Origin: Actinomycetota bacterium
GTDB taxonomy: Bacteria > Actinomycetota > Acidimicrobiia > Acidimicrobiales > Ilumatobacteraceae
Length of the DNA stretch: 64,000 nucleotides
Assembly: GCA_016871355.1 (NCBI GenBank)
Contig: VFZC01000001.1
Location: 1-64,000 of the forward strand
Reading direction: 5' to 3'
The notes beneath the pieces are model-generated. The model saw nothing but the letters and a program-made list of their open reading frames with translations. It ran no database searches and had not been told where the DNA came from. Each line of letters begins with the position of its first letter. Within the stretch, counting starts at the first letter, position 1. Positions 61,230 through 64,000 of this stretch are shown piece after piece. The translations under genes were made by a program, and so were the position numbers.

Positions 61230-62045
61230 GTGCTCGAATGCGTGGTGAACGTGAGCGAAGGTCGCGACCGCGAGGCGCTGGCCCACCTCGAGGCCGCCTG
61301 TGGCCCCGATCTGCTCGATCGTCACTCCGACGCACATCACCATCGCAGTGTGTTCACACTCGGGGGCGAAGAGGCTCCGCGCCGCCTCGCGCGTGCAGCG
61401 GTCGAGTTGCTCACCATCCACACGCACGACGGTGCGCATCCACGACTCGGTGTGGTGGACGTCGTGCCGTTCGTTCCTCTGCACGGTTCCACGATCGACG
61501 ACGCACGTCGTGCGCGCGACGAATTCGCGTCGTGGGTGGCTCACGAGTTGCACGTGCCGGCGTTCGTGTACGGCCCCGTCGGCTCCGAAGAGACGCAACT
61601 CCCCGACATTCGGCGCACGGCATGGATCGAACGACGTCCCGATCTCGGGCCGACCACACCGCACTCCACGGCGGGTTCGGTGTGCGTCGGTGCACGCGAA
61701 CTTCTCGTGGCCTACAACGTCTGGCTCGATCGTTCGGTCGATCGCGACACGTTGAAACGTGTTGCCGACGATGTTCGCGGTGACGGAATCAGAACGTTGC
61801 CACTCGTGCTCGACGGACGACCGCAAGTGAGCATGAACCTCGTCGAGCCACTGCGCGTGGGTCCCGATGTCGCATTCGATCGAGTGACGACATCGTGCGA
61901 AGCGCACGCTGCACGCGTCGATTGCGGCGAACTGGTGGGTTTGCTTCCGCGAGCGATCGTCGAACGAATCGATGCTCAGCGTTGGCAACGACTCGATGTG
62001 TCGCTGGACAGAACGATCGAGGCGCGGCTCGAACGCGCGCGGTGA
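61230..62045 (+). CDS. Glutamate formimidoyltransferase-like protein (FTCD N-domain family)
   Basis: A 271-residue protein like the formiminotransferase half of FTCD. CVVNVSEGRDREALAHLEAACG, DRHSDAHHHRSVFTLGG and THDGAHPRLGVVDVVPFVPLHG carry the catalytic His and substrate residues of the N-subdomain; PQVSMNLVEPLRVGPDVAFDRV begins the C-subdomain. There is no cyclodeaminase domain, and no other histidine-degradation gene nearby. The C-terminal part looks slightly shortened. It may act on folate one-carbon units. GTG 61230; abuts the convergent whiB. Confidence 0.85.
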   Translation: MLECVVNVSEGRDREALAHLEAACGPDLLDRHSDAHHHRSVFTLGGEEAPRRLARAAVELLTIHTHDGAHPRLGVVDVVPFVPLHGSTIDDARRARDEFASWVAHELHVPAFVYGPVGSEETQLPDIRRTAWIERRPDLGPTTPHSTAGSVCVGARELLVAYNVWLDRSVDRDTLKRVADDVRGDGIRTLPLVLDGRPQVSMNLVEPLRVGPDVAFDRVTTSCEAHAARVDCGELVGLLPRAIVERIDAQRWQRLDVSLDRTIEARLERAR

Positions 62046-62303
62046 TCAGGCGGTGGCGGTGCGACGACCGGCCTGGGCACGCTGACGACGCAGACGACGA
62101 CGCTCACGCTCGGAGAGGCCGCCCCAGATACCGAACTTCTCGCCGTTGACGAGCGCATACTCGAGGCATTCGTTGCGAACGACGCAGCCGCGGCAGACCT
62201 CCTTGGCCTCGCGGGTGGAAGCCCCCCGCTCGGGGAAGAAGAGGTCGGGGTCGACGCCGAGGCAGTTCGCCTCGTCCTGCCAGTTCTGCTCGTTCTCACT
62301 CAT
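62046..62303 (-). CDS. WhiB-family transcription factor (third in window)
   Basis: An 85-residue Wbl protein with cluster cysteines at 14, 37, 40 and 46 (CRGCVVRNEC), the GIWGG turn and a basic C-terminus (SERERRRLRRQRAQAGRR). Start MSENEQNWQDEANCLG from ATG 62303. Resembles WhiB7/WhiB4-length proteins, but no AT-hook RGRP is visible, so it is not WhiB7. Stop codon abuts the convergent formiminotransferase-like gene. Confidence 0.9.
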   Translation of the reverse strand: MSENEQNWQDEANCLGVDPDLFFPERGASTREAKEVCRGCVVRNECLEYALVNGEKFGIWGGLSERERRRLRRQRAQAGRRTATA

Positions 62304-62470
62304 GCGGCTGCCTCGCCATCTCGGCCTGACGGCCGTTTTGCCGGCACCTCGGGGCGCCGGAACTACATCAGTGTCATTCTGGCTCGCCGCGGGCGATATG
62401 TGCAAGAGGAAACTTTACGAAAGCCCAGCCTGCGGGCCTGAGCGATCCGCGACCACGGCCCGGCGACGTG

Positions 62471-63022
62471 TTAACGGGGGTCGAAATACGGGTTGTGAGC
62501 CGGCTGCCCCGACCGCCAGCGCGCCACCGTGGCCGGGACGTCATCGGCCGCCAACGACTGCCCGCCCTGGCGCAGCGCAGCCAGCGTGGCCTCCCGGTTG
62601 TTGCGGTACACCGCCGTTGCGTTCGGGGCCAGCGGATTCACCCACACGGCCACGATGATGGCATATTTCCCCAGGTCAGAGGGGGTGAAACGTTCGTCGG
62701 CGAAGGCCGCGACACCCTCGGCCACCCCGGCCTGGGCGGCACCCCACGTGAGCTCACCGTGGTGGTCGCCGGCGATGGTCGCCTTGTTCACGAACAGTGT
62801 GGGTGGCTCGCAGGGCACCCCCGGCTCGTACACGCACAGAAACGGGGTGTGACCCGGTGACGGCGTGGCCAGAGCGGTGGCCAAGGCCGTGCCCACCGGA
62901 CCATCGCGATGGCCGAGAAGAGTATTGATGTGCGCGGCGTCGGCACCCGATCCGCTGAATCCCTCGCCGATTTCGACATCGTTCACGCCATTGTTCACGG
63001 CTTTGTTCACGAGAGCGCTCAC
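62471..63022 (-). CDS. fae: Formaldehyde-activating enzyme (Fae)-like protein
   Basis: A 183-residue protein of the Fae family. The segment VEIGEGFSGSGADAAHINTLLGHRDGPVG closely follows the Fae active-site region, with the catalytic His at 31 in AHIN; PSPGHTPFLCVYEPGVPCEPPTLFVNKATI and WGAAQAGVAEGVAAF, then YAIIVAVWVNPLAPNATAVYRNNREATLAAL, cover the rest. Fae condenses formaldehyde with tetrahydromethanopterin in methylotrophs and methanogens; the carrier in an actinobacterium is uncertain. The C-terminus is about 20 residues longer than the core. GTG 63022 overlaps the oxygenase stop (GTGA); a GTG at residue 13 is an alternative. Confidence 0.85.
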   Translation of the reverse strand: MSALVNKAVNNGVNDVEIGEGFSGSGADAAHINTLLGHRDGPVGTALATALATPSPGHTPFLCVYEPGVPCEPPTLFVNKATIAGDHHGELTWGAAQAGVAEGVAAFADERFTPSDLGKYAIIVAVWVNPLAPNATAVYRNNREATLAALRQGGQSLAADDVPATVARWRSGQPAHNPYFDPR

Positions 63023-63813
63023 GACGTTGCTCCGGCCGGCAGGCGCCCGTAGCGCGACAACTTGAGCGCCTCGGACGAATCGGTGCCCGGTTTGGTGTCG
63101 TACGCCAACAGCGCCACGTAGCGCGGAGTGGGGCCTTCGATCGTGGTGACGCGATGCATGCTCCAGCGGCCGTTGAACAACATGAGGGTTCCGGGAGTCA
63201 TCGGTTCGGTGCGTACGAGATGCGGCGCACTGTCGTCGAGCACGGCAGCCACCGCGTCGTAGTTCGGGTCGTCAGCGGTTCGGAGTTGTTTCGCATTGTC
63301 GAAATCGCCGCCGCGGTCGGACGACTGCAGCGCGAGCGACACCACGAAATCAGCCATGTCGAAGTGCCAACACAGCGCGTCACCGTCGCGCATGACCGAC
63401 AAGTTGAGCGCACCGAACCGATCGGCGTACCGGTGCATCACGTCGAGACCGAGACAACGACGCACGAAATCGAGCATCGGATCCCACTCGTACAGACGGC
63501 GCAACGCACTGTCGGATGGGAACTGGTCGTACGCCACCACCTCGACCTGACTGTGCACGAGGGTGCGCTGAGGATGTCCTTCGGGGTACGCGGCGTCGGG
63601 CTGGGTGAGATACGGGGTGGACGACGAGTGCGAACGGAATGCGAGTGACTCGAGCCGACGGGCCTCGTCGACCATGGTGTTCACGGCCGCCGCGGTGAGG
63701 AATCCCGGCAAGACGCACACACCCTCGCTGTCGAACTGGGTGCGGCACGATGCGATCAGCGCGTCGTCGTCGAGTGCGTACCGAGAACCGTCGATCATCT
63801 CGGCCGGGGTCAT
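63019..63813 (-). CDS. 2-oxoglutarate/Fe(II)-dependent oxygenase-like protein
   Basis: A 264-residue protein with the double-stranded beta-helix signs of 2OG oxygenases: CWHFDMADFVVSL supplies the HxD pair (His150, Asp152), GRWSMHRV the distal His220 and TPRYVALLAYD the Arg231 for 2-oxoglutarate. It starts with DDALIASCRTQFDSEGVCVLPGFL, like phytanoyl-CoA-type members. It also resembles the BesD/HalD group, but halogenases have Gly instead of the Asp, so hydroxylation or demethylation is expected. Substrate unknown. It is translationally coupled to the Fae-like gene. ATG 63813, TACTCT six bases upstream. Confidence 0.8.
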   Translation of the reverse strand: MTPAEMIDGSRYALDDDALIASCRTQFDSEGVCVLPGFLTAAAVNTMVDEARRLESLAFRSHSSSTPYLTQPDAAYPEGHPQRTLVHSQVEVVAYDQFPSDSALRRLYEWDPMLDFVRRCLGLDVMHRYADRFGALNLSVMRDGDALCWHFDMADFVVSLALQSSDRGGDFDNAKQLRTADDPNYDAVAAVLDDSAPHLVRTEPMTPGTLMLFNGRWSMHRVTTIEGPTPRYVALLAYDTKPGTDSSEALKLSRYGRLPAGATS

Positions 63814-63856: not shown

Positions 63857-64000
63857 ATGCCCATTCACTTGAGAGCCGAGAACGGCGACTACGCATCCGC
63901 AGTGCTGTGTCCGGGTGACCCGCGACGCGCCAAGTACATCGCCGAGACGTTCTTCGATCCGGGCGCTCGTTGCGTCAACGAGGAGCGCGGCATGCTCGGG
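63857..64000 (+). CDS. deoD: DeoD-type purine nucleoside phosphorylase (5' part)
   Basis: First 48 codons of a gene running off the window. [32 protein letters not shown] and [10 protein letters not shown] match the N-terminus of hexameric purine nucleoside phosphorylase, including the phosphate-binding GDPRR loop. It splits purine nucleosides with phosphate. ATG 63857 is supported by the TACTCT -10. Confidence 0.9.

Follow-up and report, generated by a model that had tools for sequence, protein, structure and literature searches.

The gene pair at the end of the window

The window, i.e. the whole 64,000-nucleotide stretch of DNA analysed here (contig VFZC01000001.1, from an actinobacterium of the family Ilumatobacteraceae, class Acidimicrobiia), carries at its end two minus-strand genes, one for an Fe(II)/2-oxoglutarate (2OG) oxygenase, hereafter OXY, and one for a protein resembling the formaldehyde-activating enzyme Fae. 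The original prediction, in which the oxygenase stop codon overlapped the GTG start of the Fae-like gene, was borne out, as both ORFs were found on the minus strand and share the 4 nucleotides GTGA. The features of the locus are the following:

61230..62045, plus strand: formiminotransferase-like (FTCD-like) gene (PF07837, 125.1 bits), convergent with the WhiB gene and a neighbour only
62046..62405, minus strand: WhiB-family gene (PF02467, 92.5 bits), a neighbour outside the module
62471..63022, minus strand: Fae-like gene, 183 aa, GTG start
62732..62734, minus strand: Gln97 of the Fae-like protein, equivalent to Fae Gln88; Gln in 85/85 Fae-like rows and 13/13 rows from outside the class
62930..62932, minus strand: His31 of the Fae-like protein, equivalent to Fae His22; His in 85/85 Fae-like rows and 13/13 rows from outside the class
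63019..63022, minus strand: GTGA, 4-nt overlap of the OXY stop and the Fae-like start, from the ORF coordinates
63019..63813, minus strand: OXY, a 264-aa Fe(II)/2OG oxygenase of the same kind as BesD, HalD and Hydrox, with a hydroxylase-type site
63121..63123, minus strand: Arg231 of OXY, invariant, aligned (HalB alignment) with the succinate/2OG-holding Arg of BesD
63154..63156, minus strand: His220 of OXY, third Fe ligand, invariant in all groups compared
63358..63360, minus strand: Asp152 of OXY, second Fe ligand, invariant in all groups compared
63364..63366, minus strand: His150 of OXY, first Fe ligand of the HxD motif, invariant in all groups compared and aligned with the HxD of Hydrox

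The pair is not due to chance, because the dN/dS ratios are low (0.06-0.14 for OXY and 0.08-0.29 for Fae, three window-to-relative pairs each) and the 4-nt overlap recurs in relatives. The GTGA start of the Fae-like gene is common to the window and its nearest relatives, L017 and L018. The exact start is uncertain, because residues 1-13 of the ORF form a low-confidence leader in the predicted model (pLDDT <50) and a 12-nt repeat provides additional in-frame GTGs. This repeat, at positions 62977-63011, is made of three imperfect copies (GTGAAC units) with an in-frame GTG in each, and is missing from L018. Upstream of OXY lies a divergent ORF starting at 63857, the counterpart of which at locus L028 is of the PNP family.

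Families and active-site residues of the two proteins

Both proteins score above Pfam gathering cut-offs, with 33.7 bits for OXY against PF23169 (HalD, cut-off 26) and 127.6 bits for the Fae-like protein against PF08714 (Fae, cut-off 27). By structure comparison, OXY has the fold of BesD, HalB and Hydrox (6nie, 7u6j, 7jsd), at 11-15% identity. Judged from its sequence, it is an Fe/2OG oxygenase closest to these three proteins, with the HxD...H site of a hydroxylase. The residue that holds succinate/2OG in BesD, to which Arg231 corresponds, is R218 (excerpts of PMC13244439). Like the lysine hydroxylase Hydrox, OXY keeps the Fe-binding Asp, whereas the amino-acid halogenases BesD and HalA-HalD have Gly at this position (compare Hydrox D142G; excerpts of PMC13244439); the Gly or Ala that marks radical halogenases is thus absent from OXY, in which Asp152 is invariant. 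The lysine-binding residues of BesD include E123, H137 and D143 (excerpts of PMC13244439). At these positions, placed by their distance from the aligned HxD motif and in a comparison that leaves out R77, D239 and W241, OXY has F133, L147 and M153, so that it lacks three of the lysine-binding residues of BesD and Hydrox and does not look like a lysine hydroxylase or halogenase. Among proteins of solved structure, its closest relatives hydroxylate or halogenate amino acids, and none is a demethylase.

Eighteen OXY genes are shorter, with matches of 708-723 bases (L059, L061-L063, L065, L066, L068, L070-L076, L080-L082 and L087). In one aligned short OXY (L005, the same gene as L070), 24 residues are missing around window residues 66-90, and Fae still adjoins it. 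There is also a second OXY subfamily, 32-40% identical (L199-L206 and Pantoea/Klebsiella plasmids), which is common on Pantoea plasmids, often adjoins genes annotated as M14/DUF2817 peptidases and differs at several residues conserved in the Fae-linked subfamily.

Structure comparison shows that the Fae-like protein adopts the fold of Fae; in the structure alignment it is 29% identical to Fae of Methylobacterium extorquens (PDB 1y5y/1y60). It misses the NCBIfam equivalog TIGR03126 (114.5 bits, cut-off 118.05). In Fae, His22 (numbered with the Met counted) is the acid catalyst and Gln88 moves upon cofactor binding. The claim that the active-site residue His31 is retained could be upheld, since it aligns with M. 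extorquens His22 and is invariant among the 85 Fae-like rows compared. In another, alphaproteobacterial Fae group, 78% have Glu at the catalytic His position. The Fae-like rows depart from canonical Fae at many of its conserved positions, the consistent changes being D24N, Q79H, Q82L, M83T, F84W, F119W and W122P.

In a quick tree, the Fae-like branch is separate from the M. extorquens clade (86 rows against 24 others, SH-aLRT 95), and a second quick tree repeats the split (54 Fae-like against 24 other rows, SH-aLRT 97). All 13 rows from outside the class fall on the side of the window protein. The first tree kept 110 rows from 164 loci with a match, after fragments, rows of identical sequence and a hand-made list of loci fetched a second time had been dropped; dropping L002-L027 also removed a few genomes seen nowhere else, and L003, L006, L012 and L024 were restored in the second tree.

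The Fae-like protein differs from canonical Fae both in lying outside the M. extorquens clade and in occurring in genomes where mch, a marker of the methanopterin pathway, was not found. The check for methanopterin C1 genes that had been proposed was run with this marker, which was found in none of 49 genomes, 47 of them with Fae-like matches and 33 (12 + 21) with a tool-estimated completeness of 90% or more and contamination of 5% or less. In the same search, 13 of 16 alphaproteobacterial Fae genomes, used as a control, were positive, with one fragment.

One Fae-like gene without OXY (L026/L136, in the single-contig 5.0 Mb genome G060) has Arg at the catalytic His, and its NK motif is gone; it has apparently decayed or been re-purposed.

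Co-inheritance and genomic contexts

Among the window and its close relatives, a PF08714 match was found in 27 of 100 genomes (own genome included), and OXY adjoins Fae in 26 of these 27 loci, the exception being L026. A genome scan with the OXY alignment, from which 80 of 148 relatives were kept as named loci, placed Fae beside OXY in 62 of the 80, directly downstream on the same strand in 61 and divergently in one (L099). The overlap is exactly 4 nt in 46 of the 61 same-strand loci and 1-4 nt in 50, and the distance from the OXY stop to the Fae start is between -14 and +13 nt in all 61, the Fae start nearest the OXY stop being taken, a choice that favours short distances. Outside the genus of the window, OXY is still beside Fae in 7 of 8 loci, with differing flanks. 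The translationally coupled pair described in the original prediction is therefore conserved well beyond the genus.

Co-occurrence was assessed by searching one set of 296 Acidimicrobiia genomes with both the OXY and the Fae alignment. Fae was found in 40, OXY in 49 and a strong OXY match (>214 bits, a threshold chosen after the scores were known) in 37; 34 genomes have both Fae and strong OXY (Fisher p 5.6e-35, kinship uncorrected). Counting all 49 OXY matches likewise leaves 34 of the 40 Fae genomes with OXY (p 8.6e-27, kinship uncorrected). The two genes are adjacent in 25 of the 34 double-positive genomes and non-adjacent in nine, in which other genes stand beside OXY (flanks of eight of the nine, G152 being left out). 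Six class genomes have Fae without OXY (G060, G183, G229, G247, G310 and G328, the matches of G247 and G310 being partial), and three have strong OXY without Fae (G055, G190 and G272, G055 being a very long branch in the OXY tree). The OXY/Fae-like pair is thus kept together by evolution and co-inherited with and without linkage. In the unlinked cases, Fae is followed in six genomes, from two families, by an acyl-CoA-dehydrogenase-like gene; a third family has such a gene, 40-43% identical to the Fae-side one, after OXY in four genomes, and an SDR gene follows OXY in two. In a Rhodospirillales MAG, a 797-aa ORF two ORFs away from OXY (L106:2672-5062) fuses an acyl-CoA-dehydrogenase-like part (tblastn) to a class III CoA-transferase.

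Beyond the Acidimicrobiia, Fae-like matches occur in eight Actinomycetota genomes, none of them with OXY within 1.5 kb of the Fae-like gene, and on Streptomyces clavuligerus plasmids. Together with the 40 class genomes, these occurrences make the earlier statement that Fae is unusual in an actinobacterium too strong. The Alphaproteobacteria were not useful as an independent repeat of the co-occurrence: 36 of 289 genomes are OXY-positive, strongly so only G365 and G504 (~326 bits, the other 34 at 236 bits or less), and the Fae matches belong to other Fae branches, except one of those of G365. Seven contigs titled Bifidobacterium breve (L032, L055, L056, L066, L069, L075 and L076) have OXY and Fae that group with Acidimicrobiia rows, and their titles are probably mislabelled public records.

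Transport and aldehyde-dehydrogenase (ALDH) genes were seen around several of these loci. In G365 (Rhodospirillales), the order is LacI regulator, FAD oxidase, FGGY kinase, Fe-ADH, solute-binding protein (SBP) of family 5, OXY and permease, followed by a 304-aa gene, an ABC ATPase and the Fae-like gene, all running in one direction from the SBP through the Fae-like gene. An SBP 66% identical to that of G365 precedes OXY in G504, and a glycine-betaine-type ABC transporter follows OXY at L100. Two contexts hold a Fae-like gene without OXY: G328 shows a glycine-betaine-type ABC transporter, the Fae-like gene, an enolase-superfamily gene and an ALDH, and a S. clavuligerus plasmid shows a glycine betaine ABC transporter, fae, an oxidoreductase and a succinate-semialdehyde dehydrogenase. 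Caballeronia shows fae, an aldo/keto reductase and a succinate-semialdehyde dehydrogenase. An ALDH is present in 10 of the 12 Fae contexts read (absent from L221 and L165), and the ALDHs of three Burkholderiales and one Ensifer loci are 56-59% identical to the Fae-side ALDH of G882; ALDHs are common genes, and the Fae contexts were picked after first looks. What recurs, in genomes without mch found, is the uptake of solutes, an enzyme that oxidises or rearranges, the handling of aldehydes and a Fae with the catalytic His. Neighbouring ORFs were picked by their length and GC3 under a simple rule that gave some wrong frames, and the profile scan returned no family for two ORFs of L085 and for L155:5975-7337.

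Proposed function and alternative explanations

We tentatively favour the possibility that OXY demethylates a small solute and that the formaldehyde is taken up by the Fae-like protein and bound to a non-methanopterin carrier, probably folate; we infer the OXY substrate, the formaldehyde release and the carrier from genomic context and residues. OXY would oxidise a methyl carbon or a carbon alpha to a heteroatom in a small zwitterionic or anionic metabolite, the first candidate being an N-methyl amino acid or a betaine, and the hydroxylated product would collapse to an amine or alcohol and formaldehyde. The Fae-like protein, co-translated from the same message, would then condense formaldehyde with tetrahydrofolate (THF) to 5,10-methylene-THF or, less likely, with another nucleophile. 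THF is the most likely carrier because mch was not found. In favour of this reading are the linked and unlinked co-inheritance of the two genes, the transporter and ALDH genes around Fae-like loci, the Fe and 2OG residues of OXY and the retained His and Gln of the Fae-like rows. In Acidimicrobiia, OXY would be the source of formaldehyde, and capture on a non-methanopterin carrier may be the simplest function common to the Fae-like contexts. A more specific version, which we regard as unlikely, makes the Fae-like protein a dedicated THF-dependent condensing enzyme coupled to a new BesD-fold 2OG demethylase, by which, in actinobacteria, the methyl groups of dissolved osmolytes or N-methyl amino acids would pass directly to methylene-THF with no free formaldehyde.

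A precedent for a 2OG demethylase of this kind is provided by the nucleoside demethylases FJS and PHYHD1, which remove the methyl group as formaldehyde; these are phytanoyl-CoA-dioxygenase-like, whereas OXY is BesD-like, and the excerpts of PMC12709175 mention no Fae partner for them. Excerpts of PMC11748545 list Fae homologues outside the methanopterin pathway as of unknown function, and, with those of PMC5023235, suggest that non-canonical homologues act with THF or as sensors. Methyloversatilis fae2 and fae3 mutants grow normally (excerpts of PMC5023235), and, of the Methylotuvimicrobium genes, fae3 failed to complement a fae mutant, whereas complementation by fae1-2 was confined to plates (excerpts of PMC11748545). 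The OXY-linked branch resembles Fae-like Groups 2-4 and Fae2 and Fae3 in being non-canonical, a comparison made by description only, but those excerpts name a conserved partner for none of them, whereas the OXY-linked branch has OXY. No paper linking Fae to a 2OG oxygenase was among the matches listed in open-licence PMC, which is weak evidence of absence. OXY gives a little-understood Fae branch a consistent partner, and since this partner is co-inherited even without adjacency, one non-methanopterin Fae branch becomes testable.

The formaldehyde reading calls for caution mainly because OXY swaps Fae for a lyase. Also against it are the nature of the closest solved relatives of OXY, the separate branch and altered positions of the Fae-like protein, its TIGR03126 score, the mutant and complementation results for non-canonical Fae homologues, and the genomes that have one gene of the pair without the other. 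In the ten of the 18 Fae-less OXY loci in which the next gene was scanned, a PF00206 lyase directly follows OXY in six, with a seventh present as a fragment at a contig end (L095). These lyases are closest to aspartate ammonia-lyase, below every cut-off shown. A search for Fae elsewhere in the genomes of 17 of the 18 loci (L089 was left out, its OXY being identical to that of the Fae-positive G259) gave four positives, one of them a weak match, and 13 negatives. None of the seven genomes with the OXY-lyase pairing has a Fae-like match, so that OXY works without Fae in them. Lyase-linked and Fae-linked rows interleave in a quick OXY tree of 91 rows, and the alignment contains no position that is conserved in both groups and separates them; OXY sites alike across the partner groups suggest a single reaction, for which formaldehyde release would not be required.

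On this evidence OXY could instead C-hydroxylate an amino acid, dicarboxylic or branched, and its partner would then split or dehydrate the product. In Acidimicrobiia the Fae-like protein would serve as that lyase, and elsewhere an aspartase-like lyase or methylaspartate ammonia-lyase would do so, with an ALDH and mesaconyl-CoA-type steps; free formaldehyde would be beside the point. Further agreement comes from L107, which has an ALDH, 56% identical to that of L101, and a methylaspartate ammonia-lyase (337.4, cut-off 286.15), and from two Binataceae loci in which MaoC/mesaconyl-CoA-hydratase-like and HpcH/HpaI genes follow the lyase. We nevertheless hold this explanation to be rather doubtful, as the His and Gln of formaldehyde condensation are kept in every Fae-like row compared, and lyase activity of this kind is not known for any member of the Fae family. 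The Asn after the Ser-Thr of aspartase has a functional role, and its replacement by Ala in the alignment of the OXY-linked lyases also weighs against the C-hydroxylase explanation and makes a plain aspartase doubtful. The subfamily (~400 aa; L064, L067, L077, L079, L083 and L101), in which the carboxylate-binding loop is kept and Ala follows Ser-Thr, may cleave the C-N bond of substituted aspartates. One idea, suggested by L107, L067 and L079, is that valine or 3-methylaspartate is the OXY substrate. The swap between a Fae-like and an aspartase-like partner, with the conserved sites of OXY unchanged, offers a handle on that substrate.

It is improbable that the Fae-like protein senses or buffers formaldehyde, with a protective or regulatory role, and is not a metabolic enzyme. 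Its repeated 4-nt coupling to a single enzyme and the transporter and dehydrogenase contexts look metabolic, and the catalytic residues are kept, even though sensing has been proposed for Fae groups lacking an assigned function (excerpts of PMC11748545) and a protein of another family, EfgA, is a formaldehyde sensor (excerpts of PMC8153426). Very improbable is the continued use of methanopterin, imported or made via a pathway with missed markers: the canonical fold and catalytic residues would fit, many genomes are incomplete and mch was the sole marker searched, but it was found in none of the 49 genomes, including the 33 of high quality, in contrast to the alphaproteobacterial control.

In the window's family, malate dehydrogenase (mdh), acyltransferase, MTHFR and purH-type genes upstream form a conserved stretch with the pair, but the proposal that OXY and the Fae-like gene are accidental neighbours in such a region is refuted in practice, as the pair persists where these flanks change and co-occurs unlinked in nine class genomes. 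This housekeeping synteny, real within the family, was accordingly set aside as an explanation.

The WhiB gene, which separates the Fae-like and FTCD-like genes, is beside the pair in same-genus loci only. The FTCD-like gene is beside it in 17 of 19 loci of the window's genus and in none of 8 loci of other genera, and fails the NCBIfam glutamate formimidoyltransferase model TIGR02024 (137.2 bits, cut-off 221.25); the folate link originally hinted at from this neighbour was thus rejected as genus-level synteny only. Nucleoside demethylation, a candidate function drawn from the divergent PNP gene, was likewise rejected as a general explanation, since PNP matches, each of at least 78% identity, occur in just 17 of the 80 loci.
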